Shown: positions 21,016 through 33,426 of the stretch, piece by piece | How positions within the stretch are numbered: the first letter of the stretch is position 1 | Layout: every line of letters starts with the position of its first letter | Assembly (NCBI RefSeq): GCF_015278255.1 | Contig: NZ_JADIJC010000007.1 | Span: 62,001-126,000 of the forward strand | Direction of reading: 5' to 3' | DNA from: Microbacterium hibisci | Lineage (GTDB): Bacteria; Actinomycetota; Actinomycetes; Actinomycetales; Microbacteriaceae | Length of the DNA stretch: 64,000 nucleotides | Notes under the pieces: model-generated | What the model was told of the DNA's origin: nothing | The model's database searches: none | Seen by the model: the letters and a program-made list of their open reading frames with translations, nothing else | Translations under genes and position numbers: made by a program

Positions 21016-21232
21016 GGGGCGTTTCGTCTCGCTCGTTCCTCGCTCGCTCAACGGCCGGGGGCTCGCGGGGCGTTTCGTCTCGCTCGTTCCTCGCTCGCTC
21101 AACGGCCGGGGGCTCGCGGGGCGTTTCGTCTCGCTCGTTCCTCGCTCGCTCAACGGCCGGGGGCTCGCGGGGCATCGGCTCTGCCCCGGTCGTTGAGCGG
21201 AGCGCGCTCTGGCGCGCGCAGACGAAACGCGT
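21016..21232. repeat. Three 51-bp tandem repeats followed by an inverted relative
   Basis: A 51-base unit beginning GGGGCGTTTCGTCTCGCTCG is repeated three times with identical period (21016, 21067, 21118). It is followed at about 21188-21232 by an inverted, degenerate copy (GGTCGTTGAGCGGAGCG...GACGAAACGC). Related elements lie at 37371-37509. This fits a dispersed palindromic intergenic repeat family rather than CRISPR, as there are no spacers. Confidence 0.85.
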
Positions 21233-27783: not shown

Positions 27784-27900
27784 GGAGGCAGTCTAGGTGT
27801 CGGCTCGGGCACCCGCGAGGCGGCCGAAACCGGGCGGAATTCTCCAGCGTTCCGATGTATCAGACATGGCACTACCGCGCTCGGGCATGGTGTGGACAGA

Positions 27901-28527
27901 ATGGGCGCTATGACGCATGCGGGCGCCGAGGCCTCCGTCGACTCCGTTGAGCCGGCGCGATGGGAGCGTGCCGCCGCACTGTTCGTGCGGTGGCGCGAAG
28001 GCGACAGCCGTGCGATGGATGAACTCGTCCGTCTGATGACGCCGCCGCTGTGGCACGTCGTCCGGGCATACGGGCTCGATCCTGCGCTCGCACAGGACGT
28101 CGTGCAGACGACGTGGCTGACGCTCGTACGCCGTCATGAGAGCATCAACGACCCGCTCGCGGTGTCGGGATGGCTCACGATGTGCGCACGCCGTGAGGCG
28201 TGGCGGGTCGGCAAGCAGCATCGGCGCGCCGATGCGACCGAGGCCGAGTCGCTCGAACCGCACCTTCCGGTCCACGAATCCGCCGAGCAGACCGCCGCGC
28301 ACGACGACGAGAACCGTCGCCTGTGGACCGCGGTGGCCACGCTCAACGACCGATGCCAGCGCCTGCTGCGGATCGTCGCGTTCGAGGACCGCCCCGATTA
28401 TGCCCGCATCGCCGAAGACCTGGCGATGCCCATCGGATCGATCGGACCGACCCGCCAGCGCTGTCTCGCCAAGCTGCGCGCCGTTCTCGAGGGAGACGGG
28501 TGGAGAGGTGACGACGATGGGAACTGA
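27901..28527 (+). CDS. ECF-like RNA polymerase sigma factor of the S8/CHAT module
   Basis: A 208-residue sigma-70 family protein with region 2 ('ALFVRWREGDSRAMDELVRL', 'LDPALAQDVVQTTWLTLVRR') and region 4 ('YARIAEDLAMPIGSIGPTRQRCLAKLR'), and no regions 1 or 3, as in ECF sigma factors. The ATG at 27901 or 27910 could be used; neither has a strong ribosome site. Its last codons overlap the start of the small downstream gene by 11 bases. The S8 and CHAT protease genes follow on the same strand. No membrane anti-sigma factor is present, so regulation is unlike a standard ECF pair. It probably drives its own operon. Confidence 0.88.
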   Translation: MGAMTHAGAEASVDSVEPARWERAAALFVRWREGDSRAMDELVRLMTPPLWHVVRAYGLDPALAQDVVQTTWLTLVRRHESINDPLAVSGWLTMCARREAWRVGKQHRRADATEAESLEPHLPVHESAEQTAAHDDENRRLWTAVATLNDRCQRLLRIVAFEDRPDYARIAEDLAMPIGSIGPTRQRCLAKLRAVLEGDGWRGDDDGN

Positions 28528-28984
28528 GGACTTCGCGGCCGATGCCGCACTTTTCGCTCGCATGCGCCGCATGTGGGAGGACGTGGATCCCGTGCCGGCC
28601 GAACTGGTCGACCGCATGGTCGCCGCGGTCGCCGTCGAGGATCTGTCGCGCGAATACGCGTTGCTGACACTCGTCGAGGGAACGCTCGCCGCGGTTCGCG
28701 GCGAAGCCGACACGGCGACCCTGCAGTTCAGCGACGGCACGACCACGGTGCTGCTCCACGTGACGGCCACCGAGGACGGCGGCCGGCGTGTGGACGGGTG
28801 GATGGATGCCGAGGCCCTGGCCATCCGGCTCATCCAGGGCGACCGTGAATGGTCGGCCGAGCCGGGCGAGCACGGACGCTTCGCTTTCGAGGAGGTCACG
28901 CCAGGGGTGGCGCGGCTTCGTCTGGTCGTGCGCGACGCCGACGGCGCGATGCGCGACTTCCAGACCCCGCAGTTCGAAGTCTGA
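28517..28984 (+). CDS. Small protein overlapping the sigma gene (helical N-terminus, beta-sandwich C-terminus)
   Basis: A 155-residue soluble protein of no characterised family. Residues 1-45 are helical with 'MWEDVDPVPAELVDRM'. Residues about 55-155 look like a single beta-sandwich ('TTTVLLHVTATEDGG', 'FAFEEVTPGVARLRLVVRD') similar in pattern to carboxypeptidase-regulatory or transthyretin-like folds. The ATG lies inside the sigma factor's 3' end, which implies translational coupling and a near 1:1 ratio. The position is that of an anti-sigma factor; it has no zinc motif and no membrane segment. An anti-sigma or adaptor role is inferred only from overlap. Confidence 0.75.
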   Translation: MGTEDFAADAALFARMRRMWEDVDPVPAELVDRMVAAVAVEDLSREYALLTLVEGTLAAVRGEADTATLQFSDGTTTVLLHVTATEDGGRRVDGWMDAEALAIRLIQGDREWSAEPGEHGRFAFEEVTPGVARLRLVVRDADGAMRDFQTPQFEV

Positions 28985-29009
28985 CAAGCAGTTCGAGTAG
29001 TACCGATCG

Positions 29010-29039
29010 GGATGCCGCGGCCTGGGGGCCGCGGATTCC
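29010..29039 (+). terminator. Hairpin between the small protein and the subtilisin gene
   Basis: GGATGCCGCGGCC and GGCCGCGGATTCC face each other with a four-base loop and two mismatches. It stands just before the GAGGAG ribosome site of the S8 gene and may limit read-through from the sigma unit into the protease genes. Confidence 0.5.
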
Positions 29040-29058
29040 GCATGTGTGAGGAGAAGAC

Positions 29059-30723
29059 ATGACGAATGTGCCGCCCGCCGGTGGTGCCCCCCGGCGATCG
29101 ACGACCTGGCGCGATCGATACGAAGCGGCGCGCGCTCGGGGCGTGCCGCTGGATCCGACGAGTGAGCCTGTCGACGGGATCACGGCGTACCCGACCGCCT
29201 ACGCCGCCGACCACCTGCTCATCACCCGGCTGGGTTCGATCGACGACGCCCTGGCGGCACTGGTCGCCGCCGCCCGCGACTTCGGGTGGACCGTGCGGCT
29301 CGAGACGATCGACGGTCAGCCGACCGACGTGGCTCCTGCGCTGGAGCGCGCGGAACGCGCCCTGGCCGAGTACGAACTGCCCACGATCTACCGCGTCGGC
29401 ATCCTCCCCGATCCTGACCCGGCGCGCGCACAGCCGGTGCCCCCGATCGATGCCTGGCGACTGCTGCAGCGAGCCCGCGCCCGCGCTCGGTCCGACAGCG
29501 ACAGCGCGGCGTTGGAGGGCATCTCGCTCGATCACGTGCTGTCGATCGATCCGGTCGGCGGGAAGACGAATCCCGTGGGCGGGAAGACGAATCCGGTCGG
29601 GGGAAAGACGAATCCGGTTGGGGGCAAGACGAACCCCTTCGGCGTGATCAACGCACCCGGCTCGGAGAGCTACCTGGTGCCGGGCAGCGGCGGGCGGCAG
29701 GTGGTGAATTACATCGGCTCTGATCCGCTGCGGAGCCTGCCTCTGACGGCCGGGGGCCGCCGACCGGTCGTGGCCATCGTCGACACCGGCTGTGGTGTGC
29801 ACCCCTGGCTGCCGGACGAGATCGTGACCCGTTACCCCCAAGTGGAGGGGACCACCACCATCGGCATCGACGCATCGGTCGCCGACCCGGAGGTGCTCGG
29901 CGACATCGCCGGGGCGTATGACGGGGTGCTCGACGACTCGGCCGGTCACGGCACGTTCATCGCCGGCGTCGTACGGCAGGTCTGTCCCGAGGCCGACATT
30001 CTGTCGGTGCGCGTCGCGGACAGCCAGGGAACCGTGCTCGAAGGCGAGTTCATGGTCGCGGTGCGCTCCCTTGTGAAGTGGGTCGTGCTGGGGCCCGACA
30101 ACGGCGGGGGGACGGTCGATGTGATCAACATCTCGCTCGGCTACTACCACGAGACTCCGGAAGACGGCCTCTTCGACCGCACGCTGAACGACTTCCTCGT
30201 CGTCGCCCGCCGTCGGGGATGCGCGATCGTCTGTTCCGCCGGGAACGATGCCACCGACCGTCCGGCGTTCCCCGCCGCGCTGTGGGGCTGGCCTGACGCG
30301 GAGTTCGTGGTCGACGATCCAGATGACGCAGCGCCGCACATCGCGGTCGGCGCTCTGAACCCCAACGGCACGATGGCACTCTTCAGCAACATGGGTCCCT
30401 GGGTCAGCACCTTCGCGCCCGGGGCGGCCATCGTGAGCGCTCATCCGCCGTTCGACGGTGGGACCCAGGCCGGATCGCGGGACGATCGCTACGGGAAGCG
30501 TCGGGAGACGATCGATCCCGATGACTTCACCGGCGGGTTCGCCATCTGGAGCGGCACCTCGTTCGCGGCGCCGTACGTGGCCGGCATGTTGGCACGACGG
30601 CTTGCCGAGCCTCTTATGAACGGCTCCCTCACGAGCACCGACGACCGGGTGGCGCTGCTCCAGGACGCCGAGAGCGGCGTGATCGCCGACCTGGCCCTGA
30701 GAGGCCCGACCGACGCCGGCTGA
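29059..30723 (+). CDS. Subtilisin-like S8 serine protease with heptad-repeat linker
   Basis: A 554-residue S8 peptidase. The N-terminal region (1-165) is an unusual, non-secretory prodomain-like part. It is followed by four copies of the heptad VGGKTNP (residues 166-193) and then the catalytic domain with Asp242 in 'VAIVDTGCG', His297 in 'SAGHGTFIAG' and Ser501 in 'WSGTSFAAPYVAG'. The oxyanion Asn is in 'VCSAGND'. There is no signal peptide or membrane segment, so the enzyme appears cytoplasmic, which is odd for subtilisins. GAGGAG precedes the ATG. It lies 44 bases before a CHAT protease gene. The repeat linker between prodomain and catalytic core is a plausible processing or docking site. 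Confidence 0.92.
   Translation: MTNVPPAGGAPRRSTTWRDRYEAARARGVPLDPTSEPVDGITAYPTAYAADHLLITRLGSIDDALAALVAAARDFGWTVRLETIDGQPTDVAPALERAERALAEYELPTIYRVGILPDPDPARAQPVPPIDAWRLLQRARARARSDSDSAALEGISLDHVLSIDPVGGKTNPVGGKTNPVGGKTNPVGGKTNPFGVINAPGSESYLVPGSGGRQVVNYIGSDPLRSLPLTAGGRRPVVAIVDTGCGVHPWLPDEIVTRYPQVEGTTTIGIDASVADPEVLGDIAGAYDGVLDDSAGHGTFIAGVVRQVCPEADILSVRVADSQGTVLEGEFMVAVRSLVKWVVLGPDNGGGTVDVINISLGYYHETPEDGLFDRTLNDFLVVARRRGCAIVCSAGNDATDRPAFPAALWGWPDAEFVVDDPDDAAPHIAVGALNPNGTMALFSNMGPWVSTFAPGAAIVSAHPPFDGGTQAGSRDDRYGKRRETIDPDDFTGGFAIWSGTSFAAPYVAGMLARRLAEPLMNGSLTSTDDRVALLQDAESGVIADLALRGPTDAG
29554..29637 (+). repeat. Four 21-bp in-frame repeats encoding VGGKTNP
   Basis: Four consecutive 21-base units encode the identical heptad VGGKTNP, while third codon positions differ between units (for example GGCGGG, GGGGGA, GGGGGC). 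Synonymous divergence with an unchanged peptide suggests selection on the protein repeat rather than a recent slippage event. Confidence 0.9.
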
Positions 30724-30767
30724 CGCAGTCGTGGCCGTGTCGCGGTCGCACGCGCCATGATGGACGG

Positions 30768-33236
30768 GTGGTGCGCTCGGCCCGGTCTTTGCACGCCGCA
30801 GCGGTTCAGCTCGCGAACAGGGGGAGATTCGGCTCTGCCCGCCACTTGCTCGAGACCGCTGCGGCGATGGACGTCGACCCTGACCTTCGTGCCAGGATCA
30901 GCGGGACGCTGGCGTTCGTGCTCGCCCGGACAGGGGCGCTCGCCGAAGCCGAGCGGATGTGCGAATCGGCTCTGTCGACGCCGGGCCTTTCGCCGTCCAC
31001 GGTGGCCCTCCTGGCCGGCCAGATGGGGTCGATCATGGAGCAGGCCGGCCGCCTGGCTGACGCCGACCGGATGCTCGGCCGCGCCATCGCGACGGTCTCG
31101 GATCCGGTGCAGCAGGCGAATCTGCTGGTGAACCGCAGTCTCGTCGCGATCCAGCTGCGGCGACTCGACGCGGCCGCGAGCGATGCCGAGGCCGCGGCGC
31201 GCGCCTACACCGCGCAGGGAATGGCCGTGGATGCCGCGGAGGCGCGCCACAACCTCGGCTATATCGATCTGCTCCGTGGCGACATCGTCGGAGCCCTCCA
31301 GAGCATGCAGTCCGCTCGACCGATCCTCGCGGGTGTCCCCTTCGCCGCCATGATCGACGTCGATCGCGCGGAGGTCTACCGGGATGCGGGTCTGACGAGA
31401 CGCGCAGAGGCCATCCTCTCCGAGGTTGCGGCGGCGCTCGGCCGGCGCCGGATGACCCGCGCACAGGGGGAGGCCGAGTACAGCCTGGCGCGATCGCTCC
31501 TCCCGCACGACCCGGGAAGAGCGGCGCTGGTCGCGGCCCGGGCGGCCCGGCGCTTCCGCCGCCTCGGCAACGACACGTGGGCGCTGCGCGCGGACGCGCT
31601 GCGCCTGCGTGCGCAGCTGTCGGACCACACCGCCGGCCGCATCCGGGCCACCGCTCGATCCCGTCGCATTCCCTCGACCGACGACATCGCAGCCGCTTCC
31701 GTCGCACTCGAGCGCGGCGGGTTCCGCAATGAGGCGATCGCGCTCCGCATGTCTCAGGAATTGTGGCGTGCGAAGCAGAAGCGGGCCGAAGCTTCTTCGC
31801 CGATCCGCATTCCTCGCGCGGCATCCATGGAAGTCCGGCTGTTGGCGCACGAGGTGCGCGCCGAGCGCGCCGCGGCGGCCGGCCGCAACGCGGAAGCCAG
31901 GAAGCATGCGGCAGCCGGCCTGGACGAACTTGCGCGCTGGCAGCGGACGTTCGGAAGCCTCGACCTCCAGACGTCCGTGGTCATGCATGGTCGGGGCCTG
32001 GCGCTGGCCGGTCTGCGAGCCGCGGTGCGTTCGGGGCGCCCGCACATCGTCTTCGATTGGTCTGAGCGCACCCGCCACCTCAGTCAGCAAGTCGTTCCTC
32101 TGCGTCCGCCCCGGGACGCCGCCGCGGCAGCGGAGCTGGCGCAACTGCGTCAACTGCGATCCGAGGACTCGTCGGGCGATTGGCTGCGCAATCCCCAGGC
32201 CGCGGAATTGGAGCACCGCGCGCTCGAGCGGCACTGGGCGGGAACAGGCAGCGGGGCGTTCCATCGTCCCGCCAGCCTCCGCGAAGTCCTGGACGTGCTC
32301 GACGCCGACACAGCAGTCCTCGCGTACGTGTACACAGCCGACTCCATGCGCGCGCTCATCACGACCCGCGAGGGCGCTCGGATCGTCGACATCCCCGCGT
32401 GGGAGTCTGCCACGGCTGCCATGCGTGGACTTCGCGCCGACCTCGACATGGCCTCGTCTGTTCGGAGCGGTCCGATGTCAGAGGTCGTCCGGCGCTCGTT
32501 GGAACGGCGGCTCGCCGCGCTCTCGGCCGCGTTGCTGGAGCAGCCGTTGGCAGCGGTCGGGGATCGTCGCATCGTGATCACGACCCCGGGCGTTCTCGCG
32601 GGGATTCCGTGGGCGATGCTCCCTGCCATGCGCGGCCGGGTGTTCACCCTCGCCACTTCGGTCACCCGCTGGCTCCGCTCGCACGATGACCCCCAGTCCG
32701 CGCACACGGCAGGGTTCGTGGTCGGCCCAGGGGTGGCGCGAGGCCCCGAGGAGGTCCAGCGGGCGATGGCGGCGTGGGGACGCGCCCCCGTCATCGCCGG
32801 TGCCACTGCGACCGTCGACGCCGTCGAACAGCTGGCTGCGCGCGTGGATGTGCTGCATGTCGCCGCGCACGGCCGGCATGCCGGCGAGAATCCGATGTTC
32901 TCCGGCCTCGAGCTCGCCGACGGAACGCTCTTCGGCTACGACATCGACCTCATCGAGAAGGTCCCCGAAACCGTGGTGCTGTCCGCCTGTGAGGTCGGCC
33001 GGTCGTCGGTCCGCTGGGGGGAGGAGGCGGTGGGCATGACGCGGGTGTGGCTGCACGCGGGGGCGCGGTCCGTCGTTGCCGCACCCGTGGTGGTCGCGGA
33101 CGACGACGCGTGCGAGCTGCTCGGCGCCCTGCACGACGGCCTCGCCGCGGGAATCCCTCCGTCCGTCGCCCTGGTTCAGGCGTCCGAGCGCACGGGCATC
33201 GTCGCCCCGTTCCAGGTGCACGGCGCCGGATTCTGA
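30768..33236 (+). CDS. TPR-CHAT caspase-like protease
   Basis: An 822-residue protein. Residues about 1-420 are tetratricopeptide-like helical repeats ('LLETAAAMDVDPDLRARISG', 'ALAEAERMCESALST'). A linker follows, and a C-terminal CHAT domain (about 520-820) carries the catalytic dyad His701 in 'LHVAAHGRHAG' and Cys741 in 'VVLSACEVGRS'. CHAT proteases are clan CD relatives of caspases and separase. There is no signal or membrane segment. The start is GTG after a GGACGG stretch. It ends the sigma/small protein/S8/CHAT cluster and is followed by a terminator hairpin. The TPR region probably senses or docks a partner; the neighbouring S8 protease is the natural candidate substrate. Confidence 0.92.
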   Translation: MVRSARSLHAAAVQLANRGRFGSARHLLETAAAMDVDPDLRARISGTLAFVLARTGALAEAERMCESALSTPGLSPSTVALLAGQMGSIMEQAGRLADADRMLGRAIATVSDPVQQANLLVNRSLVAIQLRRLDAAASDAEAAARAYTAQGMAVDAAEARHNLGYIDLLRGDIVGALQSMQSARPILAGVPFAAMIDVDRAEVYRDAGLTRRAEAILSEVAAALGRRRMTRAQGEAEYSLARSLLPHDPGRAALVAARAARRFRRLGNDTWALRADALRLRAQLSDHTAGRIRATARSRRIPSTDDIAAASVALERGGFRNEAIALRMSQELWRAKQKRAEASSPIRIPRAASMEVRLLAHEVRAERAAAAGRNAEARKHAAAGLDELARWQRTFGSLDLQTSVVMHGRGLALAGLRAAVRSGRPHIVFDWSERTRHLSQQVVPLRPPRDAAAAAELAQLRQLRSEDSSGDWLRNPQAAELEHRALERHWAGTGSGAFHRPASLREVLDVLDADTAVLAYVYTADSMRALITTREGARIVDIPAWESATAAMRGLRADLDMASSVRSGPMSEVVRRSLERRLAALSAALLEQPLAAVGDRRIVITTPGVLAGIPWAMLPAMRGRVFTLATSVTRWLRSHDDPQSAHTAGFVVGPGVARGPEEVQRAMAAWGRAPVIAGATATVDAVEQLAARVDVLHVAAHGRHAGENPMFSGLELADGTLFGYDIDLIEKVPETVVLSACEVGRSSVRWGEEAVGMTRVWLHAGARSVVAAPVVVADDDACELLGALHDGLAAGIPPSVALVQASERTGIVAPFQVHGAGF

Positions 33237-33376
33237 ACTTTCTTCGGCCGGCCTGTATCAGGGCGGATGCCGCGGTCTCCTGGTCATCGGAACGGCTTGC
33301 GCCGCCCGACGGGGGGTCGGGGGCGCAAGAGACCGAATTGGGGACGCACATCGGGCTGCGGGTCTCGCCGGTCCTC

Positions 33377-33412
33377 GAGGGGTGCCGCATGGGAACTGGG
33401 GCGGCACCCCTC
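33377..33412. terminator. Terminator hairpin between CHAT and the convergent LysR-like gene
   Basis: GAGGGGTGCCGC and GCGGCACCCCTC are perfect 12-bp complements with a 12-base loop. Its position between convergent genes suits a bidirectional terminator. Confidence 0.75.
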
Positions 33413-33426
33413 ATCCCACGCCGGGC

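Follow-up and report, generated by a model that had tools for sequence, protein, structure and literature searches.

A probable ECF54 module of Microbacterium hibisci with a species-specific peptide array in a predicted subtilisin zymogen, a co-varying TPR-CHAT protease and a candidate structured RNA

The 64,000-nucleotide (nt) stretch of Microbacterium hibisci DNA analysed here (hereafter the window; contig NZ_JADIJC010000007.1, positions 62,001 to 126,000) contains a module of four genes for an extracytoplasmic function (ECF)-like sigma factor, a small protein, an S8 protease and a TPR-CHAT protease (Table 1). In S8, a predicted I9-type prodomain is joined to the catalytic domain by a disordered linker that carries a species-specific tandem array of short peptide units, and sequence comparison indicates that S8 and the TPR half of CHAT constitute a hypervariable, co-varying block inside conserved synteny. 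Also apparent are a promoter-like element that recurs just after CHAT, before a putative covarying structured RNA, and, in five genomes including that of M. hibisci, a candidate open reading frame (ORF) with a signal-peptide-like start and several different units. These features are new here; the gene association is not, as the available part of PMC8999054 already has it in print as ECF54 context. Tentatively, we propose an ECF54-type, self-contained protease relay in which the TPR-CHAT protease would dock on and cleave the S8 linker array, releasing active S8.

The genes of the module bear out the first-pass annotation, an earlier reading of the window from its letters, which had described four collinear genes, an intact catalytic triad and dyad, and 11 bases shared by the sigma and small-protein ORFs (direct ORF reading, Pfam matches and alignments). 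Pfam E values are 5.9e-9 for Sigma70_r2 (sigma), 1.9e-25 for Peptidase_S8 (S8) and 5.4e-24 for CHAT, and the sigma factor scores 64.4 bits against the ECF superfamily model TIGR02937 (cutoff 42.9). Asp242, His297 and Ser501 of S8 are invariant in 88/88 aligned relatives, as are His701 and Cys741 of CHAT in 91/91. The TPR region of CHAT had been put at about 420 residues; its presence is supported by a profile match of the N-terminal part to designed TPR proteins (E 2.8e-8, profile positions 4-184), its extent only to about residue 190, and in a single-sequence Pfam search the TPR matches of CHAT fell below cutoff. The window CHAT combines both features of the TPR-CHAT class (His/Cys dyad and TPR region). 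By hydropathy, no signal-peptide-like segment was seen in S8, in agreement with the earlier claim; the remark that a cytosolic location is unusual for subtilisins was overstated, as intracellular subtilisins have solved structures (2xrm, 2x8j, 7xr8). PADLOC returned weak subtilase and IetS matches for S8 and a weak BovA match for CHAT, none of them strong.

A lack of conserved co-occurrence had been named beforehand as what would refute the earlier reading, and this test did not refute it: the genes stay together across the class, even through rearrangements, and their conservation is far beyond chance. Among 299 genomes of the family, M. hibisci included, S8 (at E 1e-30) was detected in 14 and CHAT (at E 1e-15) in 13, all of the latter among the former; in the fourteenth S8 genome (G254) the start of CHAT lies at a contig edge (E 1.7e-5). 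The sigma factor, S8 and CHAT (or part of it) follow the order of the window in all 13 family genomes besides that of M. hibisci, and the small protein is present in 12 of the 13; in G258 the module is divided between two contigs, and in G106 ~4 kb of other DNA lies between S8 and CHAT (L026:8240-12360), with the RNA after CHAT retained. For the best 80 of 180 CHAT relatives in the scan of named genomes, nearly all Microbacterium, S8 was present in 78, the sigma factor in 74 and the small protein in 74. Among the incomplete loci, four (L039, L095, L109, L115) are situated at contig ends, L066 has other genes of mobile-element type in that place, and L117 is a 5.9-kb contig on which CHAT is followed by S8. 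One locus (L043:6690-9958) has two tandem S8 genes (54% identical), with arrays of NPFTRT and PFGKTN, and one CHAT. In the class set (345 genomes, including M. hibisci and some family members; CHAT at E 1e-40), CHAT was found in 91 genomes and S8 in 20, and by coordinates all 20 S8 genes lie within ~4.2 kb of CHAT. At 20 chosen class CHAT loci, S8 is nearby in 20, the sigma factor in 15 and the small protein in 16; because these loci keep the genes together in several orders and orientations, the linkage survives rearrangement.

The AlphaFold2 (AF2) model of S8 (mean predicted local distance difference test (pLDDT) 80.1; predicted template modelling score (pTM) 0.86) comprises a confident N-domain (residues ~28-163), a disordered segment (residues 166-217) and the catalytic domain. 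The N-domain is predicted to be an I9-type prodomain by its fold, because the model aligns with unprocessed pro-Tk-subtilisin (2e1p; model residues 50-554, Z 23.2, rmsd 4.2, 310 aligned) and with PCSK9 with its prodomain (5vlp; Z 24.6); a Pfam search gave no I9 match, and the assignment is one of fold. S8 shares with these subtilases the fold of prodomain and catalytic domain, and differs from them in the repeat array between its two domains and in that no signal peptide was seen.

Arrays of 3-9 identical or nearly identical units, of 5-8 residues each, were measured in 88 of 92 S8 coding sequences; among the remaining four, L094 and L107 carry an array, L109 is a fragment and only L117 is without one. 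The module is carried by soil bacteria, and the linker units differ from species to species: the 83 loci with all genes have 34 distinct units, identical within an array, yet changed in all copies between related species. At the class loci, arrays were found by script in 3/20 (GVPFGS, GYGDGV, NPLTRG), and imperfect or widely spaced arrays by eye in 3/20 (L168, L171, L174). Within the 88 arrays, of which five contain an imperfect unit, the 661 unit pairs, of which 51 have the same DNA sequence, give 0.006 for nonsynonymous differences (pN) and 0.505 for synonymous differences (pS); because the array finder tolerates no more than one mismatch per unit, pN is low in part by construction, which does not apply to the high pS. 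Codon mismatch between units is 0.379, against 0.417 expected from the codon usage of each gene. Because the protein units are (nearly) identical and synonymous sites are near saturation, unit identity appears to be held by selection and not by recent slippage; slippage or gene conversion as the origin of the array was ruled out by the same near-saturation. In close S8 pairs (catalytic-part identity at least 0.90, 30 pairs), units of the same index share codons more often than units of different index (0.749 vs 0.649); over all 296 S8 pairs the two values hardly differ (0.660 vs 0.649). A reading of the array as a passive linker, flexible and with varied codons that guard against repeats in the DNA and against deletion, would suit the low pLDDT and the synonymous variation between units; we consider it very unlikely, as such a linker would have no need to keep its units identical (pN 0.006 over 661 pairs, in part a product of the finder), to change all copies together between relatives, or to share units with a secreted protein.

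Divergence within the module is uneven. Between the window and L089, DNA identity is 87% over the sigma and small-protein stretch and, where S8 can be aligned, 65%; the greater part of the TPR half gives no alignment, and identity is 78% at the 3' end of CHAT and 78-85% beyond. Part by part, identity is 97% for the sigma factor, 51% for the S8 catalytic part, 45% for the TPR half and an intermediate 62% for the CHAT catalytic part. L087 and L099 have sigma factors that are 99.5% identical, but their TPR halves are 61%, S8 catalytic parts 72% and prodomain parts 49% identical. Across the 83 loci, distances correlate at 0.91 between sigma factor and small protein, 0.86 between the S8 catalytic part and the TPR half, 0.67 between the S8 and CHAT catalytic parts, and 0.52 between the S8 catalytic part and the sigma factor. 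The partial correlation of the S8 catalytic part with the TPR half given the CHAT catalytic part is 0.75, and with the CHAT catalytic part given the TPR half it is -0.22; that of the S8 N-terminal part with the small protein given the sigma factor is 0.006, although S8 and the small protein adjoin. The pairing of array and CHAT across species looks like a matched lock and key between the proteases.

In the proposed relay, the sigma factor would drive two transcription units from one type of promoter, the sequences of which are present at both: its own operon (sigma factor, small protein and S8) and the structured RNA after CHAT. S8 would be made as a zymogen with its predicted prodomain; the TPR half of CHAT would dock on the repeat units of the S8 linker, CHAT would cut the linker at these units, and the freed S8 could digest further targets. 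Several identical units would permit multivalent recognition and make cleavage hard to miss, and the TPR half and S8 would evolve as a matched, fast-changing pair, seen as co-variation that is partly explicable by linkage. The small protein would be a likely cytoplasmic brake on the sigma factor, and the RNA may be a cofactor or regulator. Support for the relay comes from gene linkage through rearrangement, the prodomain and disordered linker, the selected unit identity, the co-variation of the S8 catalytic part with the TPR half, and a weak link of unit distance with the TPR half that persists after S8 is accounted for (0.13, p 0.016), against -0.03 for the CHAT catalytic part. The first-pass annotation had CHAT acting on the S8 zymogen, a putative step that the prodomain fold, the disordered repeat linker and the co-variation support better than the window alone does; the S8 array, both promoters and the RNA after CHAT were absent from it.

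Several observations weigh against this relay. S8 and the TPR half adjoin, and block replacement by recombination explains part of their co-variation. Unit distance also follows the S8 catalytic domain given the TPR half (0.26), which fits self-processing by S8; within-array codon diversity is slightly below random (p 0.010), and as the permutation tests shuffle labels and ignore the tree, p values are loose. By script and eye, 14/20 class loci have no array, and distant relatives are often arrayless; the S8 of L117 is without an array, and in L043 two S8 genes with different arrays stand beside a single CHAT. The units have no fixed residue in common that could be a single P1 site.

Carboxypeptidase, subtilase and CHAT domains are encoded in the conserved neighbourhood of ECF54 sigma factors, according to the available part of PMC8999054, which in section 3.3 reports proposed proteolytic control of ECF54 sigma factors without an anti-sigma factor. 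With its ECF-type sigma factor and its subtilase and CHAT neighbours, the module is probably ECF54, filed by gene context. The absence of an adjoining membrane anti-sigma factor, pointed out earlier, holds, in that the next gene encodes the 155-residue small protein, in which a strong hydrophobic segment was looked for and none found. The small protein (AF2 mean pLDDT 80.6, pTM 0.55) would be the ECF54 "carboxypeptidase" neighbour: 20 of 44 members of its family match PF13620 (CarboxypepD_reg) weakly, at E <=1 (best 1.4e-4). The window protein itself has no PF13620 match and no Pfam match at all, and a fold search for it gave nothing at E 0.001 or better, mostly generic beta-sandwiches. On the published ECF54 view, S8 and/or CHAT would degrade the sigma factor or the small protein, and the array would be the processing linker of S8 itself. 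We regard this as rather doubtful. It is stated in section 3.3 of PMC8999054 as proteolytic sigma control; the CHAT protease Csx29 cleaves Csx30, the inhibitor of an ECF-like sigma factor (PMC10028731, in the part available); the M. hibisci genome has the promoter pattern at the module and at one further, one-mismatch site; and unit distance tracks the S8 catalytic part given the TPR half. Against this view, the divergence of S8 and the TPR half is accompanied by conservation of the sigma factor and small protein, an odd pattern if protease and substrate evolve as matched pairs.

Array units also occur outside S8, in ORFs with a start that resembles a signal peptide by eye and with 3-5 different units each. 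Among 247 genomes of the genus, 11 match such a unit ORF at E 0.01 and five at 1.7e-14 or better, M. hibisci among the five; its unit ORF (G000:C13:462563-462814 = L249:7564-7815; 84 residues, 56% identity) lies far from the module and has the units PHGMTN, PHTKTN, PFSRTN, PFGHTN and PHGRTN. The unit ORFs of four of the five genomes (M. hibisci and three others) occupy one shared genomic site away from the module, and that of G694 (82 residues, five different units) stands beside an orphan CHAT fragment and a second RNA. At this G694 locus (L236:4086-7313), the orphan CHAT C-terminal fragment, unit ORF and second RNA copy are downstream of an intact CHAT. Compared with the units of the 83 loci and of truncated L039, 17 of 22 secreted units match exactly, and PHSKTN (two more) is an S8 unit in L265, making 19/22; for random hexamers of matched composition, the rate of matches to this list is 39.6%. 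Searched against 315 genus genomes, a profile built from the five ORFs found those five and 22 others, of which 18 are S8 arrays and four look like chance. None of the five genomes has the units of its own S8 in its secreted ORF; only G753 is informative, with a one-in-five chance.

RRNPP peptide-TPR systems comprise a TPR protein, short linear peptides and a secreted precursor, and the module has a TPR protein, short peptide units and, in five genomes, a putative precursor that looks secreted; it differs in its CHAT output, in tandem units inside a protease, and in a precursor mostly encoded elsewhere in the genome. The units could be peptide ligands of the CHAT TPR groove in the RRNPP manner, with the secreted precursor acting between cells and the S8 array as internal ligand. 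The signal-peptide-like unit ORFs of five genomes, with 19/22 units identical to S8 units, and the 18 S8 arrays matched by the secreted-ORF profile alone fit this idea, which is nonetheless unlikely: the unit ORF occurs in only 5/315 genus genomes, the four syntenic unit-ORF loci are without the exact promoter pattern, and random hexamers match at the rate given above. Of similarly low probability is allotype recognition, in which the array would serve each lineage as a tag of self, to be read by the TPR half of the partner CHAT, tag and reader being exchanged or diversified as a cassette; some strains would secrete a protein with several foreign tags and not their own, the protease switch of neighbours would be triggered, blocked or sensed, and the sigma-driven structured RNA would be part of the switch.

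Of the 87 loci whose sequence extends at least 150 nt upstream of the sigma start, 73 have a TGTATCA element in that interval, commonly followed by GCTC after 15-16 nt. In the M. hibisci genome, the sigma-upstream site is the only TGTATCA match of the promoter pattern, and the one-mismatch form adds the RNA promoter and one further site. Downstream of CHAT, TGTATC is found in 70 of 94 stretches (two of the 94 empty), with a 17-nt spacing in many loci. A hand count over 79 Microbacterium genomes gave 111 pattern matches vs 61 with the reversed pattern as control, which means that an isolated site is often fortuitous; same-strand pairs of sites 3-13 kb apart occur in 17 of the 79, one of which (G694) is the pair of RNAs. 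Inspection by eye also places the element ahead of operons that begin with S8 in distant relatives (L170, L172, L178, L179), and four further promoter-like sites (L230-L233) lie before genes of unrelated appearance. On the minus strand at L178:12358, TGTATCA-N15-GCTC stands before an ATPase-like ORF of 657 residues that adjoins the distant module.

The RNA is ~135 nt long and ends in a terminator-like hairpin; in the window its minimum free energy (MFE) is -75.6 (z -3.73). In an alignment of 26 loci (A6), from which the structure (helix 5 being the terminator) was itself drawn, the structure pairs 89.7% of cells, and 19 pairs show changes on both sides vs a shuffled mean of 9.0, including all six pairs of a UGGGGA-loop hairpin. 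A covariance model from 26 other loci finds the window RNA (E 4e-5), and the RNA model detects copies at displaced positions in L072 and L079. Run on 39 genomes of the genus, it gave matches in nine, seven of them strong, the RNA starting directly after a listed promoter in six of the seven; the genome-wide search at E 0.001 did not report the M. hibisci RNA, although it is recovered by the search of the locus. The 75 transcripts average 2.12 copies of UGGGG, compared with 0.56 after mononucleotide shuffling. When distances at 68 loci were entered in a joint regression, RNA distance gave 0.38 for the sigma factor, 0.35 for the TPR half and 0.01 for the adjoining CHAT catalytic part, a hint only that it tracks the first two more than the third. 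No Rfam family reached its gathering score in six loci, window positions 33361-33418 giving a sub-threshold match to Scr2736 (21.9 bits vs a cutoff of 43, E 3.2). Visual inspection spoke against the RNA being a coding sequence, as gaps in alignments A5 and A6 do not come in multiples of three and no ATG is shared. In G258 (G258:C129), the promoter element and RNA are at L234:625 (minus strand), ~10 kb downstream of the CHAT fragment of the contig; the RNA seems to have been kept although displaced.

The connection of a TPR-CHAT protease with an ECF-like sigma factor has a precedent in the CASP system (PMC10028731, in the part available). CASP/Craspase (Csx29 TPR-CHAT, Csx30, CASP-sigma; cf. 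PMC9729208) and the window module have in common a TPR-CHAT protease encoded with an ECF-like sigma factor and the involvement of RNA; the module differs in its second protease and its own RNA gene. No Cas7-11-like or Csx30 match was found by Pfam among the four proteins and eight neighbouring ORFs, a scan of the locus only, with no checked Csx30 model. The ECF54 context of PMC8999054 agrees with the module in an ECF sigma factor without an anti-sigma factor, in nearby subtilase and CHAT domains and possibly in a carboxypeptidase-type neighbour; the repeat array, co-varying S8-TPR block, second promoter with RNA, and secreted unit ORF go unmentioned in the available part of that paper. A literature search gave no other paper on the four genes, and Casas-Pastor 2021 or Huang 2015, both cited in PMC8999054, might mention the array; the term "CHAT" was not found in the available part of PMC7159879. 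The analysis would turn a brief note on ECF54 context into a testable machine, in which a readable and polymorphic code of peptides joins a caspase-like protease to a subtilisin zymogen, and which has an RNA of its own. Should this code serve recognition, bacteria would possess a self/non-self switch based on proteolysis that is reminiscent of both caspase cascades and peptide pheromones, and its natural pairs of code and reader, dozens of them, could be used to engineer protease switches orthogonal to one another.

Table 1. Features of the module, in window positions.
Feature	Position	Strand	Basis and remarks
Promoter-like element upstream of sigma, TGTATCA-N16-GCTC	27856..27882	+	Conserved in relatives
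ECF-like sigma factor, 208 aa	27901..28527	+	Sigma70_r2, TIGR02937; alternative ATG start 27910
Small protein, 155 aa	28517..28984	+	Two N-terminal helices and C-terminal beta-sandwich; CarboxypepD_reg-like at family level
S8 protease with prodomain, 554 aa	29059..30723	+	Peptidase_S8; invariant triad; AF2 model
Predicted I9-type prodomain of S8 (residues ~28-163)	29140..29547	+	Fold match to 2e1p
Tandem array PVGGKTN x4, prodomain/catalytic linker	29551..29634	+	Repeat finding; pLDDT <50 at residues 166-217
TPR-CHAT protease, 822 aa, GTG start	30768..33236	+	CHAT (Pfam), TPR profile, invariant His701/Cys741
Second promoter-like element, TGTATCA-N15-TCTCCTG	33254..33282	+	17 nt after CHAT stop; GCTCCTG in most relatives
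Structured RNA (candidate)	33280..33418	+	MFE, covariance model; terminator-like hairpin 33377-33412

The eight neighbouring ORFs scanned with Pfam belong to unrelated families or have no match. By eye, the CHAT start (window 30750-30768) lies ~10 bases after a -10-like CATGAT or CATAAT in several loci, a spacing that would suit a separate CHAT promoter and a leaderless transcript. Elsewhere in the window (21018-21158), there are three 39-base direct repeats with 51-base spacing, which have identical matches in L089 and L025.

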